Of a stretch of 64,000 nucleotides of DNA, positions 24,598 to 56,475 are shown in pieces. A model generated the notes under the pieces. That model made no database searches, had not been told where the DNA came from, and was given only the letters and a program-made list of their open reading frames with translations. How positions within the stretch are numbered: the first letter of the stretch is position 1; each line of letters opens with the position of its first letter. Origin of the DNA: Candidatus Gastranaerophilales bacterium (GTDB taxonomy: Bacteria; Cyanobacteriota; Vampirovibrionia; Gastranaerophilales; Gastranaerophilaceae); contig CALUWC010000004.1 of assembly GCA_944324395.1 (NCBI GenBank), forward strand, positions 1 through 64,000, given 5' to 3'. A program made the translations under genes and the position numbers.

Positions 24598-26328
24598 ATG
24601 GGCTTAGCAGCATCACAAGCTAGATTATTAACAATAACAGCCAGAAAAGCTGACTGCGAGTTTCAATCTATGAGCTTATCTCATCAGAAACTTGCACTTG
24701 CTCGTGACATGGAAAAAGTTTCTAACGACTACCAGACAGCTCTGAATACTACAAAACTTGTCTATGATTATTACGGCTCAGGCGATAGTGATATGGATTT
24801 GACCTATGACTTATTGATGAGTCCGTCAATTTATAACGATTATTATCCAAAACTTGTAACTGACGCTAAAAACAGAGTTATATTAAATTCCGCATACGCA
24901 TCAGCTGCCAGAGCTGCAGGAATTCCTGCAGAAGGTTTATTAGGAACACCATCTTCTGATGTTCGTAACAAATTTATCGAAGCTCTTGTCGGTGAAAATA
25001 TTATCACTTCAACTCAAGCGGCATCAATTGAAGGAGTAACTTACGGTAATACTCTCGGTCTTGGTGATACTGTATCCGTAACACAAGGAACTACTGAAAT
25101 AACTTATGATGAGTTAGTAGATATGCTGAAAGCAAGCAGTGTTGATACAAGTACTAAAGGTATTACATTAGGTTCAACTACAGATACCGGCGGATTTGGA
25201 GATGAATATTTCGGCTACAGTACAAATGGCGGCAGCTGGCAAAATGATACTAACCTTACTATAGAAAAATTATTATCTGATGATACTGAATACTATTTAA
25301 GTATGTTATCAAGACAAGGTGAAGAAATTCCATTTGTTCAAGCTGATATGCTGCAACAAAAGATTGTTAATAAAATTCTCCCTTGGATACAAGAAGCTTT
25401 TACTTCAATTTTAGGCGGGACCGCAGCTAGTAATACAGCTTTGCAGTATGCATATAATGCTGTTTATGATTTGATTGTCCCGAATAACAATATCCAGGAT
25501 TGGATAGAAGATAACCAAGGCAAAGTTAGCGAAGGCGACAAAGGCGAACGTCAGAAGACATTTGGTGCAGAAGAAAACCCTACATTAAAAGGATACTTAG
25601 ATGATATAGGTCAATGCGAAGGCACCAAAGGTAAAAGAGGTCATGATACAAACCAGGCTATGAAAGCCGGAGATTATCTTGGATTCTATTATACAAGTGA
25701 TAAAAACCAGTGGTTTATGCACAAAGACAGAAAAGATAAATCTCAAATCAGTATCAGTTTGAATAATGTTATGGATGTATTCTTAACAGCTTACGTCCAA
25801 TATATGGAAGGCATTGAAGAATCAGAATATTACTGGCAGAAAGGCAGCTTATCAGATTCCAATTTATATGACCCGAAAGACAGTGATTTTACATTCACTA
25901 TCGTAGCAGACTCATCAACAAGTGATGAGGACAGTTTAATACAAGCAAATTACTACGACACATTGTTCAATATGATTTGTCTTAACGGCTGGACTGAAAA
26001 TGCTCAGATTGATGATTCCGAATACTTAAGTGAAATGTTAAAAAGCGGTATGGCATTTATTTCTTCAATAAGTGATGACGGATATTATTATCAGGGTAAC
26101 TATTCAACTGATAAATATATTCTTGAAGTTACTGATGATGAAGCTATTTCAAAGGCAGAAGCTAAATATAATACCGAAAAAACTAAAATTGAAAACAAAG
26201 AAGATACAATTGATTTAAAGATGAAAAACCTCGATACTGAGATATCATCTTTGACAACGGAATATGATACAACAAAATCAATAATTTCAAAATCCATAGA
26301 AAAATCATTTAAACGATATGATGCATAA
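24598..26328 (+). CDS. Large lineage-specific protein with an N-terminal ASQARLL motif
   Basis: The gene encodes 576 aa of no family I recognise. It begins MGLAASQARLLTITARKADC and continues as a Gln/Leu-rich helix to about residue 55, without a signal peptide. The middle (60-480) is rich in Asp, Tyr, Gly, Thr and Ser. The C-terminal 70 residues form a coiled coil. The N-terminal helix, the lack of a Sec signal and the helical end recall flagellar and type III secreted proteins, but no homology is claimed. A related start occurs in the 108-aa protein at 30562. AAAGGAAA precedes the ATG. Confidence 0.6.
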   Translation: MGLAASQARLLTITARKADCEFQSMSLSHQKLALARDMEKVSNDYQTALNTTKLVYDYYGSGDSDMDLTYDLLMSPSIYNDYYPKLVTDAKNRVILNSAYASAARAAGIPAEGLLGTPSSDVRNKFIEALVGENIITSTQAASIEGVTYGNTLGLGDTVSVTQGTTEITYDELVDMLKASSVDTSTKGITLGSTTDTGGFGDEYFGYSTNGGSWQNDTNLTIEKLLSDDTEYYLSMLSRQGEEIPFVQADMLQQKIVNKILPWIQEAFTSILGGTAASNTALQYAYNAVYDLIVPNNNIQDWIEDNQGKVSEGDKGERQKTFGAEENPTLKGYLDDIGQCEGTKGKRGHDTNQAMKAGDYLGFYYTSDKNQWFMHKDRKDKSQISISLNNVMDVFLTAYVQYMEGIEESEYYWQKGSLSDSNLYDPKDSDFTFTIVADSSTSDEDSLIQANYYDTLFNMICLNGWTENAQIDDSEYLSEMLKSGMAFISSISDDGYYYQGNYSTDKYILEVTDDEAISKAEAKYNTEKTKIENKEDTIDLKMKNLDTEISSLTTEYDTTKSIISKSIEKSFKRYDA

Positions 26329-30561: not shown

Positions 30562-30888
30562 CTATGAACTTATCAAGTTCAATGTACAACTTGATTTGAT
30601 GTTGTTGTTTACCAGTGTCTTTAAACCTGAAATTTCGTTTTCAATCGCTGTTAATTGAGAATCAATTGAATCTTTTTCGGTTTCCAAAGAATCACTTAAA
30701 TCTGAATAGTAAATGTAATCCGCATCGTCAGTACAATCACCTTCAACACTTGCATATTCTCTTTCAATAGCTGTCATTTGAGATGTTGCATATTGAATCT
30801 GGTTCTGAATTGAAATGTACTGAAATTGATAAAAATTTTTCTGCAAAGTCAATAAACTTTTTTGACTTGCCAATGCTAAAAATGCCAT
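30562..30888 (-). CDS. Small lineage-specific helical protein (ASQ start)
   Basis: The gene encodes 108 aa. Residues 1-45 form a Gln-rich helix starting MAFLALASQKSLLTLQKNFY. Residues 50-95 form a second acidic helix. There is no signal peptide. The start shares the ASQ-x-x-LLT pattern and the Gln/Ser helical spacing of the 576-aa protein at 24598. AAGGAGA precedes the ATG. It is convergent with folD. Function unknown. Confidence 0.55.
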   Translation of the reverse strand: MAFLALASQKSLLTLQKNFYQFQYISIQNQIQYATSQMTAIEREYASVEGDCTDDADYIYYSDLSDSLETEKDSIDSQLTAIENEISGLKTLVNNNIKSSCTLNLISS

Positions 30889-36112: not shown

Positions 36113-36141
36113 TTGAAAAAACTTGAAAAAAGTTGTATAAT
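36113..36141 (+). promoter_or_regulatory. Promoter of the pilin-like gene array
   Basis: TTGAAA (36113-36118) and TATAAT (36136-36141) are spaced by exactly 17 bp. The 10-mer ACTTGAAAAA is present twice in tandem (36111-36130), so two overlapping -35 candidates exist. The predicted leader to the ATG at 36172 is about 24 bases. Confidence 0.65.
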
Positions 36142-36171
36142 TTGTATATACACAAAAATAGGATTAAGAGT

Positions 36172-36801
36172 ATGAGGAAAGCCTTAACCATTGGTGAATT
36201 ATTGGTCACTATGACAATTATCGGAGTTATTGCAGCTCTTGTTCTGCCCGGTTTCTTGAAAGATTATCATAAAAGAATATATACAACCAAACTCAAAAAA
36301 ACGTATGAAATACTTGATAATGCAATCAATCAAGCTTGTACGGATAATAATGTTTCATATTTTTACCAAACTCCATATGCAACATATAAAACTGGAGGTG
36401 CTAATCAACAAGAATTTTTAAACAAATATTTTAAAACAGCTAATAGACAAAACAGTAATCCTTTCTCTTCTAAATATAAAATTTTAGCAAGTGGTAAAGA
36501 ATCATCTATAAATTTAGCAAACAGTGGTTGGGCAAAATTAGCTAGTGGCGAGGCTGTTTCATTTTTTTGCGATTACACAAAAACCAGATGCGTAATAAGA
36601 GTCGATGTCAACTCAACTGACGGTCCCAACATTGGAGGAAGAGATCTTTTTGCAATAGCTATAGATATCAAAACCAATAAACTCGGAGACGTATACAATG
36701 CAAAAGGAGATAAATACTCTCCTGACACATGTGGAACCGAAATTTATGGTTACGGATGTCTTGAAAAAATCTTGGAAAACAACTGGGAAATGGATTACTA
36801 A
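36172..36801 (+). CDS. Type IV pilin-like protein 1
   Basis: The 209-aa product begins MRKALTIGELLVTMTIIGVI, a class III (prepilin) signal with the conserved Glu at position +5 and a long hydrophobic helix. The residue before the cleavage point is Ala, not Gly. The C-terminal domain has two Cys pairs and the shared ending GCLEKILENNWEMDY. The motif VDVNSTDGPNIGGRDLF resembles the D-x-N-G-x-x-x-P-N calcium-site sequence in pseudopilins. I set the start at 36172; the upstream 39 bases are non-homologous. It is the first of four tandem genes. Confidence 0.85.
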   Translation: MRKALTIGELLVTMTIIGVIAALVLPGFLKDYHKRIYTTKLKKTYEILDNAINQACTDNNVSYFYQTPYATYKTGGANQQEFLNKYFKTANRQNSNPFSSKYKILASGKESSINLANSGWAKLASGEAVSFFCDYTKTRCVIRVDVNSTDGPNIGGRDLFAIAIDIKTNKLGDVYNAKGDKYSPDTCGTEIYGYGCLEKILENNWEMDY

Positions 36802-36818
36802 ATAACAGAAGGATAAAT

Positions 36819-37526
36819 ATGAAAAAAGGTTTTACTTTAGCAGAAGTTTTAATAACGTTAGGTATAGTCGGTATCGTTGCGGTTCTGACAATTCCTTCAG
36901 TTATGAAAAATTATAAAAACAGATTATATACAGCTCAATTAGAAAAAGTCTATGCTCAACTGAACGAAGCTACTCTGGCAATTATGAATGATGAAAGAGT
37001 AGATAGTTTCTATGAAACTAAAGCAAACGGAACCGACAAATGTACTGATAATAATAAACAAAACTGTACCGGCGGTTTACCTTATTTTTTGTCTACTTAT
37101 CTTGAACCGGTCAAGAAAAACTGTGCAAAAGGTGATAATGATGAAATATGTGTAGCCGGCGGAACAACTTCATCATACAAATATATTGACGGATCTGATG
37201 CAGGTGGTATAGGCAGCGGAACATATTGTATTCAACTTGCAAGCGGAGCTGCAATATGCGGTTTTCATAATCCGGGAAACAAATGTACAAGTCTTGTAGT
37301 TGATGTAAACGGGCAGGCTGCACCTAATATTGTTGGACGTGATGTATTTTCTATGGATATTCACAAAAACGGTTCAATCTCTGACTATTCCAGCGGTTGT
37401 GCTGATAATAATTTTGGATGTACAGCTGACAGATGTAATGCAGGCGGAGCCGGCGACGGAATTTACGGAAGTGCTTGCGGATGTTTGACTGCCGTAATGG
37501 AAGCCGGTTGGAAAATGGAATATTAG
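36819..37526 (+). CDS. Type IV pilin-like protein 2
   Basis: The 235-aa product has a canonical prepilin leader MKKG followed by FTLAEVLITLGIVGIVAVL, with cleavage after Gly and Glu at +5. The globular part is Cys-rich (about 10 Cys) and contains VVDVNGQAAPNIVGRDVFSM and the ending GCLTAVMEAGWKMEY. The signal and the first 115 bases of the gene are almost identical in DNA to those of gene 3. AGAAGGATAA precedes the ATG and the gap to gene 1 is 17 bp. Confidence 0.88.
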   Translation: MKKGFTLAEVLITLGIVGIVAVLTIPSVMKNYKNRLYTAQLEKVYAQLNEATLAIMNDERVDSFYETKANGTDKCTDNNKQNCTGGLPYFLSTYLEPVKKNCAKGDNDEICVAGGTTSSYKYIDGSDAGGIGSGTYCIQLASGAAICGFHNPGNKCTSLVVDVNGQAAPNIVGRDVFSMDIHKNGSISDYSSGCADNNFGCTADRCNAGGAGDGIYGSACGCLTAVMEAGWKMEY

Positions 37527-37539
37527 AGGTTATATATAA

Positions 37540-38238
37540 ATGAAAAAAGGTTTTACTTTAGCAGAAGTTTTAATAACGTTAGGTATAGTCGGTATTGTTG
37601 CGGTTCTGACAATCCCTTCAGTTATGAAAAATTATAAAAACAGATTATATACTTCTCAATTAGAAAAAGTTTATGCTCAAATAGTTGACGCAACTAAATC
37701 AATTATGAGCGATGAGCATGTAGATAATTTTTATGAAACTAAAGTTGTTGGAACTTGCGGTCAGGGAATTACGGATAAATCAAAATGTACCGGAGGTCCG
37801 GAATACTTTTTAAATACCTATTTTAAAACGGTTAAAACAGACTGTGCCGGTGGTGATGATGATGAAAAATGTGTACCGACATCAACATACAAATATATTG
37901 ATGGAACTGATGCTACTACTATTCCAACAAATTATTATTGCGTACAATTAGTCAGCGGTGCTGTTATTTGTGCAAATAATACTATCGCCAAATGCACAAG
38001 TGTACTTGTTGATGTAAACGGACAGGCAGAACCTAATATTGTTGGTCGTGATTTATTTTCTATGGATATACATAAAAACGGCTCTTTATCAGATTATGAC
38101 AGCGGTTGCGGCGATAATAGCATCGGTTGTGCAGCTGACAGATGTAATGCAGGCGGAGGATCCGGAAACGGGATTTTCAGCAGTGCCTGCGGGTGCCTTA
38201 ATGCTGTAGTTCAAGCCGGTTGGAAAATGAAATATTAG
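37540..38238 (+). CDS. Type IV pilin-like protein 3
   Basis: The 232-aa product is the closest paralogue of gene 2. It has the same prepilin leader, the same Cys pattern and the same DVNGQAEPNIVGRDLFSMD segment. It ends in GCLNAVVQAGWKMKY. The 5' ends of genes 2 and 3 match almost base for base. Downstream they diverge in the loops, which suggests recent duplication and gene conversion. The gap to gene 2 is 13 bp, with AGAGGTTATA before the ATG. It is probably a minor pilin or competence/secretion pseudopilin. Confidence 0.88.
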   Translation: MKKGFTLAEVLITLGIVGIVAVLTIPSVMKNYKNRLYTSQLEKVYAQIVDATKSIMSDEHVDNFYETKVVGTCGQGITDKSKCTGGPEYFLNTYFKTVKTDCAGGDDDEKCVPTSTYKYIDGTDATTIPTNYYCVQLVSGAVICANNTIAKCTSVLVDVNGQAEPNIVGRDLFSMDIHKNGSLSDYDSGCGDNSIGCAADRCNAGGGSGNGIFSSACGCLNAVVQAGWKMKY

Positions 38239-38249
38239 AGGTTGAATAT

Positions 38250-38930
38250 ATGAAAAAAGGATTTACTTTATCAGAAGTTTTAATAACACTCGGTATTATA
38301 GGTGTCATTGCCGCTTTGACTATTCCTGCCATTGTTACAAACTACAGGAATAAAATATATGTTGCTCAATTGAAAAGGGTTTACGGTCAGATAACAGAAG
38401 CTGCCCAGACTATTATGACAGAAGAACAAACAGATAACTTCTATACAACATCTGCAGGTATTCCGCAGGATAACACCGGCGAGAATTGTAAAACAGGAGC
38501 TTGTTATTTTCTAAGAAACTATTTTAAAACCATGAATGAAAACTGTGCAACAGGCGATCATCCATGCGTAGGTGACTCCTATAAAGGTTTAAATGGGACT
38601 GCTTTGACTGTAAAACCGGGAGGCTCTTTCTGTGCTCAAACAACTAATGGTGCAACTATTTGTGCCACACACAACACAAATAATCAGGTTACAAGTATAA
38701 CTGTTGATGTAAACGGTAAAGATGACCCGAATACTGCAGGTCGTGATGTATTTTCTATGGATATGAAAACAGACGGCACATTATCTGACTATGAAAGCGG
38801 TTCCAATGTTCCCGGTTCTGAAGGTGCTCCTGCTGAACGATGCGGGAATGGTAGTACTTCAAGTATAAATGCTGCCGCCGCAGGGTGTTTGACAAGAATT
38901 ATTGAAGACGGCTGGGTTATGAAATACTAG
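38250..38930 (+). CDS. Type IV pilin-like protein 4
   Basis: The 226-aa product starts MKKGFTLSEVLITLGIIGVI with the class III prepilin signal. It shares with the others the Cys-rich globular domain, VDVNGKDDPNTAGRDVFSMD and the ending GCLTRIIEDGWVMKY. It is more diverged than 2 and 3. AGAGGTTGAA at the end of gene 3 serves as ribosome site, so I prefer 38250 over a start 30 bp upstream that overlaps gene 3. No prepilin peptidase or PilB-type ATPase gene is in the window. Confidence 0.87.
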   Translation: MKKGFTLSEVLITLGIIGVIAALTIPAIVTNYRNKIYVAQLKRVYGQITEAAQTIMTEEQTDNFYTTSAGIPQDNTGENCKTGACYFLRNYFKTMNENCATGDHPCVGDSYKGLNGTALTVKPGGSFCAQTTNGATICATHNTNNQVTSITVDVNGKDDPNTAGRDVFSMDMKTDGTLSDYESGSNVPGSEGAPAERCGNGSTSSINAAAAGCLTRIIEDGWVMKY

Positions 38931-52424: not shown

Positions 52425-52985
52425 ATGTTAAAATTTCCGCCGATAAAACAACCAAAAATCTCAAATTATTTCGTCTATAAGATAAAATCTAAAAACACCG
52501 GTGCATTTATATATAAAATGTTCAACCGGCAGGGAAATTTCGTAGGTGAAATGACTGCATATCCGGAAACTATTCATGATCTAAACCGCCAATTCTCACC
52601 TAATGCAGATTCATACAGATCATTTTATATCAAACGTTTGAATGTATTTGACCGCCATAAAGGAGCAGGCAGAGCATTCATAAATATTGCCCGAAAAGAA
52701 AGTTTGAGAAATTTTTGCCTAGGAAATATCCACCTGATATCATCGGCCAGAATGGATATGGAAAATCCTCCGCATATTTTTTATAGAAAAATGGGATTTT
52801 TATGCAGCAAATACTTTAAACTCATAGAAAAATATCTAGATGAATGTATACAAAATCATACCCGGATTGAAAAAGGAAAATGTCCGCTGGATATTCCAAT
52901 GTATATCGAAAAGGATGTCGATTTATCCGGAAAAAAACAGGCGGCATTTTACGAAATGAAAATTAAATTTCACTATCTTTTTTAA
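52425..52985 (+). CDS. GNAT-like acetyltransferase, tandem copy 1
   Basis: The 186-aa product has a GNAT-type acetyl-CoA segment RHKGAGRAFINIARKES (motif A, R/Q-x-x-G-x-G/A), then the shared ENPPHIFYRKMGF motif B and the ending DIPMYIEKDVDL. Substrate-contacting N-terminal residues differ strongly among the three copies. It has no signal peptide. It is the first of three tandem paralogues (52425, 53045 and 53630) convergent with a FlhA-C-like gene. The acetyl acceptor is unknown. Confidence 0.68.
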   Translation: MLKFPPIKQPKISNYFVYKIKSKNTGAFIYKMFNRQGNFVGEMTAYPETIHDLNRQFSPNADSYRSFYIKRLNVFDRHKGAGRAFINIARKESLRNFCLGNIHLISSARMDMENPPHIFYRKMGFLCSKYFKLIEKYLDECIQNHTRIEKGKCPLDIPMYIEKDVDLSGKKQAAFYEMKIKFHYLF

Positions 52986-53044
52986 TATATGTAAAAAATA
53001 TTAATAAACTATCAAAAATAATCTTTATCAGTTTTAATACAAAT

Positions 53045-53617
53045 ATGAATATTTCACATTTAAAATATCCGCCATTAAAATCTAATATACTTAAAAAATT
53101 TCCGGATAAACTTGTATACAAATATAATACCGAAAGTAAAATAGATAAATTTATTATATTTTCCACCCAAAAAGGCTCTCATGACCATGCCAGAATGACC
53201 TGTTCTCCGGAATTGATAAAACGTGACGGAAAAGAAAATGTCCCGTCTTTATATATATGGTTTTTAAGCTCAAATTGTTCAGGCAAAGGTTTTGGAACTG
53301 CAATGCTTGATTTTGCAATACAATACAGTAAAAAACTTGGTTGTAACGGAAATCTACATTTATCTGCCGATGGAAGTTTTATGCCAAACAGAATTCCTCA
53401 TATTTTTTACAGAAAATTCGGAATGAGTACAAAAAAAACTTCCATTGACAAGCGTCTTGATCAATTTATCGCCAAGGGCAAAAATGCAACGTACCAAGAT
53501 TTTGATGATGTAGATATGTTCTATCCGCCGATTGAACATCCGAAAGATAAAATACAATCTGCAATCTATAAAGGATTTTTATTCGGACTAAAATCTATTT
53601 TTGGACTAAAAGATTAG
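53045..53617 (+). CDS. GNAT-like acetyltransferase, tandem copy 2
   Basis: The 190-aa product shares GKGFGTAMLDFAIQYSKKLG, IPHIFYRKFGMSTKK and VDMFYPPIEHPKDK with the neighbours. The motif A glycines are intact. The N-terminal half lacks the SYRSFYI segment seen in copies 1 and 3 and instead has SLYIWFLSSNCSG. The gap to copy 1 is 59 bp and to copy 3 is 12 bp. Function as for copy 1, by family. Confidence 0.66.
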   Translation: MNISHLKYPPLKSNILKKFPDKLVYKYNTESKIDKFIIFSTQKGSHDHARMTCSPELIKRDGKENVPSLYIWFLSSNCSGKGFGTAMLDFAIQYSKKLGCNGNLHLSADGSFMPNRIPHIFYRKFGMSTKKTSIDKRLDQFIAKGKNATYQDFDDVDMFYPPIEHPKDKIQSAIYKGFLFGLKSIFGLKD

Positions 53618-53629
53618 AAAAGAGGAATT

Positions 53630-54223
53630 ATGCAATCACTACTTTCAATAAAACCGTTAAAAACTGTTCCTGACAAGTTATTTTATAAAGTTGAAACAAC
53701 TATTACAGATTCCATGCACGATAAAAATTCTGAAACACGCACATATCCTGCATTTCAGTACACAGGAATAAACACAAAAACAGGAGAAGCCGGAGGGAAA
53801 ATGATTGCCGCTCCTATGTTATATGAAAATCCTGTCCAATACTTTTATCCTTATAATAAACCATACAGATCCTTTTATATTCACTATTTGAGATCTGAAG
53901 AAAAATATCAGGGATTCGGTACTGCATTTATTAACCTTGCAAAAGCCGAAAGCAGGAAATATAACTGTAATGGAAAAATTCATCTTATCGCAAGCAGAAT
54001 TTATGATAGAGAAAATCCTCCGCATATATTCTACAAAAAACAAGGTTTTATCTGCCAATCCAAAAGTATAAACAAATATTTAGACAGCTGCATAAGACTT
54101 AATAAAAAAATAAGTCTTTATATGTCCCAAAATCTGGATATGTTTCTGCCAATAAAAGAAACAGTTAAAAAAGCACCGTCATTACTAACCGCAATATTTA
54201 ATTACTTAAAAAATATAACTTAA
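53630..54223 (+). CDS. GNAT-like acetyltransferase, tandem copy 3
   Basis: The 197-aa product has EKYQGFGTAFINLAKAESRK, ENPPHIFYKKQGF and LDMFLPIKETV, and the N-terminal PYRSFYIHYLR. It is closest to copy 1. AGAGGAATT precedes the ATG. The stop lies 3 bp from the convergent end of the FlhA-C-like gene. The triplet looks like a locally amplified, lineage-specific family. Confidence 0.67.
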   Translation: MQSLLSIKPLKTVPDKLFYKVETTITDSMHDKNSETRTYPAFQYTGINTKTGEAGGKMIAAPMLYENPVQYFYPYNKPYRSFYIHYLRSEEKYQGFGTAFINLAKAESRKYNCNGKIHLIASRIYDRENPPHIFYKKQGFICQSKSINKYLDSCIRLNKKISLYMSQNLDMFLPIKETVKKAPSLLTAIFNYLKNIT

Positions 54224-54226
54224 AAA

Positions 54227-55708
54227 CTATATGTCGCCAAGACTGTCAATTTTAAAATTACAGCCGATTTCTTCCTGTGATAATACAGTAATATTATTTA
54301 AATACAGCGATAATATAGTAAAGAATATTTGTCTATAATCCATAGGAACAATAAGTTTCGGATTATATATTTTTAATTTCTTGGATTTTCTGATAATTTT
54401 ATTAGCAAGTTTTTCAGCAAGCTCTCCGTCAATTTTTATCAAAGAATCATCACTTTCATCACAGCTTAAAACAATATCAGAATACGTTTTGTCAGACAAT
54501 TCAAATGCACTGATAGTTTCTCCGTCATCATTGACATAATTTCTGCAAATTTGTCTTGATAAAGATAATCTGATTTTGTTCAATATATCTGATTTACTTC
54601 CTTCTTCTGCAAAATCATTAATCTTTTCAAATATATAAGTAATATTCTTAATAGAAACTTTTTCCTTTATCAAACTTGTTAAAAGATACTTAACATCAGC
54701 ATAAGTAAGCAAATCCGGAATAAGATTTTCAACCAGGAATTCATTTTCCTTTTCTACAACTTCCAAATACTTATCTATATCATCATAATCCAAAAGATCA
54801 TCAACATATTTCACAGCAATATATTCCAGAGCTTTTGCAATGTATTCAGATGGTGTAATTCCTTTTTGCCAGAAATCTTTTGTTTTATCCTTCTCTATCC
54901 AGATAACTTTTCTATCCGTTATTTCATCAACAGCTGAAACAGTATTTTTTATCTTACTGCCAAGGTGTATTTCATCTGCATAAAACATTAAATACCCGGG
55001 ACAAACTCCTGCTCTGAAAACCTCCATCCCGCGAATTCTTATACTAAACTCGCATGAATTTAAGTTTTCATCATCTTTGAATACAACTTTCGGAATTACA
55101 TATCCGCTTTCTTCTGTCAATTTTAAACGGGATTTAACAGTTTCCGCTATTAACTCTTCACCTGTATTGTTTCTGTCAGAATCAACAAAACCTAAAAGTT
55201 CCTCGCTAAGGTATATTGTAAGTTTTTCTTCGTGCAATTTTGAATACATTAAATCAGGAGAAGTAGCTTTATTTAATTGAGCTTTTAAATCTTCCAATTC
55301 TTTCAAACCTGCGGAAATTCTGTCATTTAATTTCTTCCTTGAAACAGAAGCAGGAGCCTCGCCTTCCAGCTCAGCTTTAATTTTGTTTATCTTATCTTTT
55401 TCTCTTCTTATTTTCGATTGAATTTCCAGACATTGTTCATATTCTGTCATTTTTGGAGAAAGCATTTTTTCCATCTGGCTTTTAAAATCGGATATGCTGA
55501 TTATATCACTTTCTGTACTATTTTCGGATTTTGCTTCACGCATAAAAATACAATTTAATTGAGAGCCGGTTTCTTCATCTCCGACATCGTGCATACTGTA
55601 CAAATCCCATCCGTTCATAGACATTTCATTGAGAAGATTTTGCAACTCTTGTGCATCATCTCCAGAACATGTTTTTATAACGTATTCCATTCTGTTTTTT
55701 CTGTACAT
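54227..55708 (-). CDS. Soluble protein with FlhA/SctV cytoplasmic (export-gate) domain
   Basis: The 493-aa product has no membrane helix. Residues 8-58 resemble a DUF4177-like beta fold (YVIKT to LNCIFMRE). Residues 75-150 are a coiled coil. Residues 160-490 match FlhA-C: LTIYLSEELLGFVD, SGYVIPKVVFKDDENLNSCE, FSIRIRGMEVFRAG, VIWIEKDK, the helical IPDLLTYADVKYLLTSLIKE, then KVSIKNITYIFEKIN, ILNKIRLSLSRQICRNYV and the end TVLSQEEIG. In flagellar and injectisome export, FlhA-C binds chaperone-substrate complexes. AAGGAT in the end of udp sets the ATG; the genes are 2 bp apart. Confidence 0.8.
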   Translation of the reverse strand: MYRKNRMEYVIKTCSGDDAQELQNLLNEMSMNGWDLYSMHDVGDEETGSQLNCIFMREAKSENSTESDIISISDFKSQMEKMLSPKMTEYEQCLEIQSKIRREKDKINKIKAELEGEAPASVSRKKLNDRISAGLKELEDLKAQLNKATSPDLMYSKLHEEKLTIYLSEELLGFVDSDRNNTGEELIAETVKSRLKLTEESGYVIPKVVFKDDENLNSCEFSIRIRGMEVFRAGVCPGYLMFYADEIHLGSKIKNTVSAVDEITDRKVIWIEKDKTKDFWQKGITPSEYIAKALEYIAVKYVDDLLDYDDIDKYLEVVEKENEFLVENLIPDLLTYADVKYLLTSLIKEKVSIKNITYIFEKINDFAEEGSKSDILNKIRLSLSRQICRNYVNDDGETISAFELSDKTYSDIVLSCDESDDSLIKIDGELAEKLANKIIRKSKKLKIYNPKLIVPMDYRQIFFTILSLYLNNITVLSQEEIGCNFKIDSLGDI

Positions 55709-55710
55709 AA

Positions 55711-56475
55711 TTATTTATCCTTTTTCAAAATTTTTATTGCTTCAATAGCAGTTTTGATAGCCTTTTCGGTATCATGTTCAACAGGATTTTCCAAACTTTG
55801 TTTTTCTCTTTCCTGATTAGCCACAGTTAAAAATACCGAACCAGCTTTAACCTTCAAATAACTGGCAACAACAAATAATGCTGCGGATTCCATTTCAGAA
55901 GCTAAACATCCTAATCGTTTCCATGCTTCCCATTTATTTTGCAATTCGTAACTCACAGGCATATTTTCAGCATTATGCTGTCCGTAAAATGAATCCTTAC
56001 ATTGAACAATCCCGGTATGATAAGTATATCCAAGATTTTTAGCCGCATTAACCAGAGCATTTGTAATGTCCAAATCCGCTACAGCAGGGAATTCAATCGG
56101 AGCATATTCTTTACTGGTACCCTCCATACGGATTGCCCCTGTTGCAATTACAACATCGCCGCCTTGGACATCTAAAGACATTCCGCCGCATGTTCCTACT
56201 CTTATAAAAACTTCAGCTCCTACTTTTACTAATTCTTCCATAGCAATAGATGCAGACGGTCCGCCAATGCCTGTTGAAGTTACACTAACTTTTTCTCCGT
56301 CAAGATAACCTGTATATGTGACAAATTCTCTCCTGTCTGCAACAAGTTTTGCATCATCCAGGTATTGTGCAATTTTTACACATCTTTTAGGATCACCCGG
56401 AAGTATAACATATTTTCCGGCATCACCTTCTTTTAAACCTATATGATATTGTGTACCGTCCTGTGAATAGTTCAT
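55711..56475 (-). CDS. udp: Uridine phosphorylase (nucleoside phosphorylase family)
   Basis: The 254-aa product is a PNP/UDP-family phosphorylase. It has [29 protein letters not shown] and [20 protein letters not shown]. The residues CKDSFYGQH and [11 protein letters not shown] are close to uridine phosphorylase rather than purine types. It cleaves uridine with phosphate to uracil and ribose 1-phosphate. It is translated just ahead of the FlhA-C-like gene (2-bp gap), an odd pairing. Confidence 0.87.

Follow-up and report, generated by a model that had tools for sequence, protein, structure and literature searches.

A conserved soluble paralogue of the FlhA cytoplasmic domain in Gastranaerophilales and its proposed link to a second flagellar-type export apparatus

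The SOL gene and the architecture of its product

The window analysed here, the first 64,000 nucleotides of contig CALUWC010000004.1 of a Candidatus Gastranaerophilales bacterium (assembly GCA_944324395.1), carries on its minus strand a single and intact open reading frame that begins with an ATG at 55708 and ends with a stop codon closing at 54227 (Table 1). FlhA and SctV are membrane-anchored nonamers in which docking is done by the soluble half, and the protein encoded at this locus is a soluble paralogue of that half (FlhA-C), for which we use the name SOL. The frame upstream, at 55711-56475(-), is a separate gene with its own ATG that resembles nucleoside phosphorylases when read by eye, and three tandem GNAT-like acetyltransferase genes at 52425-54223(+), one of which passes the Pfam cut-off, are convergent with SOL. 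In addition, tandem genes at 36133-38930(+) have type IV prepilin-like N-termini (KKGFTLAEVLITLGIVG).

Table 1. Coordinates of SOL, its regions and a candidate export substrate in the window
Feature	Coordinates	Strand	Extent	Basis or description
SOL, soluble FlhA-C paralogue	54227..55708	(-)	493 aa	Profile, structure and family comparisons
N-terminal beta-alpha-beta-beta domain, DUF4177-like	55535..55690	(-)	residues ~7-58	Family alignment, AlphaFold2, sub-cut-off Pfam match
Helical hairpin / coiled coil	55265..55495	(-)	residues ~72-148	AlphaFold2 secondary structure
FlhA linker end and cytoplasmic domains D1-D4	54230..55294	(-)	residues ~139-493	Profile and structure matches
Candidate type-B export substrate	24598..26328	(+)	576 aa	N-terminus MGLAASQARLLTITARK, C-terminal helix ...ISKSIEKSFKRYDA, variable middle

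The Pfam family FHIPEP matches SOL with an E-value of 6.4e-48, and aligns residues 139-483 with profile positions 309-654 of 657, which correspond to the end of the linker and the entire cytoplasmic domain and leave out the membrane half. Among the NCBIfam models, SOL is matched by FlhA (2.6e-44, 151.6 bits) and SctV (9.6e-26, 90.4 bits), in both cases far under the curated cut-offs for full-length equivalogs (772.1 and 692.25, respectively). The closest solved structures are those of FlhA-C, with 3mix at 1.2e-21 for the single sequence, and the match to solved FlhA-C rises to 3.5e-51 when the family profile of SOL serves as the query. Every one of the best 50 Foldseek matches to the AlphaFold2 model (mean pLDDT 78, pTM 0.64, 44-sequence alignment) is an FlhA-C or SctV-C chain, the top one being 6ch2 (E 6.6e-21, TM 0.78 by target length). 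The initial annotation had read the protein by eye as a stand-alone FlhA-C with a replaced N-terminus and no membrane part, and Pfam, NCBIfam, solved structures and Foldseek agree in confirming this; among the ORFs of the window, no frame for FHIPEP membrane helices is found within SOL or upstream of it. The same annotation was right to assign the whole cytoplasmic domain to the protein and wrong to place its start at residue 160, as the homology begins at ~139 within the FlhA linker, and a linker motif, (N/S)PxxMYxxL, lies at residues ~150-158.

The predicted model places the N-terminal beta-alpha-beta-beta domain first, followed by two long helices (89-115 and 122-148) and then by FlhA-C. 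Within the N-terminal domain, L26, N27, M29, W34, Y37 and F55 are invariant across the SOL family. The proposed resemblance of this domain to DUF4177 (PF13783) holds for its size, its strand-helix-strand-strand order and the GW(E/D)LYS motif; the protein of the window itself remains below the Pfam cut-off (13.2 versus 25 bits, E 0.11), while 20 of 28 SOL family members match at E<=1, the best at 3e-4. No function for DUF4177 was found in the literature searched.

Conservation, ancestry and the cargo dock

The whole architecture of ~490 residues is present, at 33-100% identity, in 144 of the 146 genomes sampled from the order Gastranaerophilales (40 genera, 7 families), which supplies the phylogenetic profile that the initial annotation had called for. 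The N-terminal domain is conserved to the same degree as the remainder of the protein, and comparison with close orthologues gives a dN/dS of ~0.03, of which only the direction, purifying selection, is safe because dS is saturated. Such near-universal conservation and purifying selection speak against SOL being an idle remnant. Beyond the order, the matches of a class-wide profile search all had scores typical of the C-domain of a full-length FlhA, and in 15 of these genomes that were followed up, full-length FlhA and a few short pieces were present and the SOL architecture absent. The large genomes of family f8 have essentially no FlhA.

A search for FHIPEP over the order separates three classes, with E-values of about 1e-260 for the canonical full-length FlhA of some genera (class A), 1e-216 for a divergent full-length FlhA found in nearly all genomes (class B), and 1e-48 for SOL. 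Each of the three classes is separated from the rest by a single branch in a maximum-likelihood tree built on the C-domain (99/95 for A, 97/87 for B and 100/100 for SOL). An origin of SOL from the order's own B form is not rejected (AU p=0.105), and the tree test neither supports nor rejects a placement inside the B clade. The closest relative of SOL is the type-B FlhA of Vampirovibrionia, with 27-29% identity over residues ~127-490.

This relationship is distributed unevenly over the four domains, whose boundaries we take to be the Salmonella FlhA domain limits. The SOL consensus agrees with that of B at 38% (D1), 24% (D2), 41% (D3) and 21% (D4) of positions, and with that of A at 29%, 14%, 30% and 21%, respectively. 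Conservation is highest in the linker motif, D1 and D3, and lowest in D4, the binding site of FliJ homologues; moreover, the (S/N)PxxMYxxL motif is common to SOL and to the B and C forms and is absent from A forms. In FlhA of Salmonella, the ring is stabilised by the linker, which contacts D1 and D3 of the adjacent subunit; FliJ attaches both to the linker and to the cleft of D4, and the GYXLI motif, in which Gly-368 lies, is required for domain motion (PMC8166844, PMC10965912). Gly-368 is a glycine in all A, B and C rows and a serine in 18 of 20 SOL rows. In the chaperone-binding dimple of FlhA (Asp-456, Phe-459 and Thr-490), only Asp-456 is retained, in 19 of 20 SOL sequences; most rows have F459 changed to T/S, L461 to K/R and T490 to K/R. 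W465 is kept. The hydrophobic dock has been turned polar and charged across the family, which suggests that SOL probably does not use the canonical cargo dock as FlhA does, although the elements of ring contact are kept. This change also speaks against SOL acting as a simple second chaperone dock.

The type-B export apparatus and its candidate substrates

We use the name type B for a second flagellar-type export apparatus of Gastranaerophilales, which comprises FliE, FliF, FliH, FlhA, FliI, FlhB, FliMN-O-P-Q-R and rod proteins. It persists in unflagellated species, and some members of the order also have canonical flagella; full-length FHIPEP proteins, present in 144 of 146 genomes, are of the B form in unflagellated and of both forms in flagellated members. 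In an operon of a congener (locus L067), FliE (1.6e-17), FliF (3e-30), a protein in the FliG position and FliH (3e-26) are followed by the type-B FlhA gene in last place (example at L067:9396-11492). The protein in the FliG position (L067:7666-8673) is not significantly matched by any Pfam or NCBIfam model, and represents either a FliG that has diverged strongly or a protein that has replaced it.

The initial annotation had treated SOL as a stand-alone domain with no other flagellar or injectisome gene in the window, a setting that does not extend to the genome as a whole, where the greater part of a type III export apparatus is encoded. The genome search it proposed for FliI, FlhB and FliP/Q/R recovered FliO, FliP, FliQ and FliR together with a FliMN-domain protein (position and sequence served to assign Q and R), a single FlhB and a single FliI above the curated cut-offs, and rod-type proteins at 141-143 kb on the contig of the window, which also occur in unflagellated genomes. 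These genes are spread over contigs C9, C2, C8 and C4. FlhB and FliI are found above cut-off once each in the unflagellated genomes tested and twice each in the two flagellated ones, which, together with the operons and the rod genes, identifies type B as a second export apparatus, nearly complete and equipped with rod proteins, that is retained when flagella are lost. Earlier papers took the genes of this second machine for leftover flagellum genes. The conserved list of Di Rienzi et al. 2013 contains flgG, flgC, fliF, fliH, flhA, fliI, flgE, fliP/Q/R, flhB and a second flhA (PMC3787301), and one of the two flhA genes may be SOL. No description of a non-flagellar type III system was found for these organisms in the literature searched, and to the extent of that search, reading their flagellar gene set as a separate system is new.

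SOL and type-B FlhA co-occur in nearly all of the 146 genomes, which within one order is weak evidence of partnership because both may simply be core genes. SOL is absent from G134, which has a full-length FlhA, and is present without one in G121 and in the genome studied here (G000), where assembly gaps are possible. In our genome, searches by protein family, by the DNA of the congener operon and for FliF found neither type-B FlhA nor FliF, in an assembly that is 99.36% complete in 25 contigs. FliF was found in 16 of 16 congeners searched. As the remaining genes of type B are intact, the absence more probably reflects a gap in the assembly than a loss. Type-B FlhA also occurs in neighbouring orders (f9, f14 and f15), and because type B occurs without SOL in related orders, SOL is not required for type B as such.

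The statement that the window holds no other flagellar gene stands for canonical genes by ORF reading, and needs to be qualified for the candidate substrate in Table 1. This protein belongs to a group beginning with MG[LM]AASQAR, whose members have N- and C-terminal helices in common around a variable middle, measure 109 to 738 residues and carry no family name. Axial proteins of export systems likewise share terminal helices around a variable middle, so that the group can be regarded as candidate axial proteins or type-B substrates, which would be exported. Further members lie at L067:462-1523, where the motif was first met at the head of the region, and at L259-L268, L246 and L247, and a minimal 109-residue form occurs in other orders (L200-L202). 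Searched as a DNA pattern, MG(L/M)AASQ gave 2-9 matches in each of the type-B genomes searched. Three f12 genomes whose only FlhA is of the C type gave none, and the backward control gave two matches in 21 genomes; the pattern alone is not fully specific, since the four f8 genomes give 1-3 unlike matches each. The ORF at 30562-30888 of the window (108 aa) aligns poorly with the family and was dropped.

Other soluble FlhA-C pieces are found as well. A B-like one of 296 residues in our genome (L066:9645-10535, equivalent to C7:90145-91035) is 39% identical to type-B FlhA, lacks most of D2 and D4 and has an N-terminal extension of its own. In a different order, a short stand-alone FlhA-C gene (L242:8998-9867 in G182, Pfam 3e-16) adjoins type-B FlhA. 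Soluble pieces of FlhA-C thus appear to have originated repeatedly in connection with type B.

Possible roles of SOL and comparison with known systems

The best explanation for SOL, which we favour tentatively and which may well be correct, is that it serves as a dedicated soluble subunit of the filament-less type-B apparatus, as an adaptor or regulator of its gate. The partnership is supported by distribution and sequence. As to its origin, the gene for type-B FlhA was most likely duplicated, and the copy would have lost its membrane half, the place of which was taken by the DUF4177-like domain and the helical hairpin. SOL could then join or cap the type-B gate ring through its linker, D1 and D3, the surfaces that hold FlhA neighbours together, and its N-terminal module, instead of the F459/T490 dimple, would receive cargo or a component of the ATPase complex. 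This reading is favoured by the near-universal presence of SOL with type-B FlhA, its B-like D1-D3, the common linker motif, and the separate short FlhA-C pieces beside type B. It is also favoured by the only direct genomic tie of SOL to export genes: in two genomes of family f7 (G007 and G013), SOL stands first in a co-directional row with FliJ (2e-17), FliK (2e-18), FlgD (9e-21) and FlgE, ~14 kb from FliH-FlhA_B-FliI. Against it count type B without SOL elsewhere, the scarcity of export neighbours, the mismatches in G000, G121 and G134, and the weak D4. A bolder and somewhat unlikely proposal is that Gastranaerophilales run an unrecognised filament-less secretion machine that exports the MG[LM]AASQAR axial-like proteins, with SOL as a detachable, cytosolic second gate element. 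Such a machine would be separate from flagella and kept when these are lost, and SOL would load or gate its substrates, in what would be the first export gate to include a soluble FlhA among its subunits.

SOL might instead be a cytosolic decoy or brake, comparable to a dominant-negative export-gate domain, that, by binding type-B FlhA, FliJ or substrate complexes, would delay export until it is required. We consider this unlikely, although it fits nearly as well as a partner of the gate, and sequence does not separate it from an adaptor: a protein that keeps linker, D1 and D3 and alters the dimple could occupy a slot of the ring without cargo, and its gene lies outside export operons in most families, whereas no regulatory linkage is seen and strong conservation of the N-terminal module points to an active partner of SOL's own. 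Similarly unlikely is the recruitment of the FlhA-C fold as a platform for a non-export process, in which case its association with type B within one order would be coincidental. The loss of the dimple and of the GYXLI glycine would agree with this, as would family f1, where SOL commonly follows BamA-, OmpH/Skp- and nucleoside-phosphorylase-like genes, is also adjoined by an RsmI-like one, and has no export genes nearby. However, the neighbourhood varies between families, most of which show other genes and no conserved export-gene neighbour, SOL heads an export row in f7, and its sequence remains closest to type-B FlhA.

It is very unlikely that SOL is a soluble FlhA for the export of the canonical, type-A flagellum. 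The f7 row may belong to the canonical flagellum of its species, and G013, the one of the two genomes examined for it, has a type-A FlhA, but SOL is no less conserved in the many genomes that lack type-A FlhA, including unflagellated genera, and is nearer to B in sequence. Finally, a decaying FlhA fragment or an assembly artefact, in favour of which the missing FliF-FlhA_B operon of our assembly could be cited, is ruled out by the same intact architecture in 144 genomes and by the dN/dS against close orthologues.

The FlhA-C fold is known and SOL is a paralogue of a known family, while neither a conserved free-standing FlhA-C with a rebuilt dock nor a soluble FlhA was found in the literature searched. 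A lineage that encodes the soluble half of FlhA again, free and with a rebuilt dock, represents a natural separation of both halves, and SOL thereby offers a way to test the function of an FlhA-C ring by itself.

Compared with FlhA-C (the C-terminal part of PF00771; 3mix, 6ch2, 3a5i), SOL has the same linker end and D1-D4 fold at full length, with D456 and W465 in common. The injectisome C-domains of SctV, HrcV, InvA and MxiA share the fold by profile and structure, although their match is weaker than that of FlhA and they belong to proteins with a membrane half. Type-B FlhA shares both the PxxMYxxL linker motif and an FE(R/K)xxD(Y/F) stretch; unlike SOL, it is full-length, membrane half included, and has the conserved equivalent of Gly-368 and a dimple of the D/Y/T type. 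In relation to FlhA as a whole, F459, L461, T490 and G368 are replaced and a new N-terminal domain and helical hairpin are added. Without the membrane half, the GYXLI glycine and the dimple, SOL is therefore not filed as FlhA, but it may nevertheless work as part of the gate.
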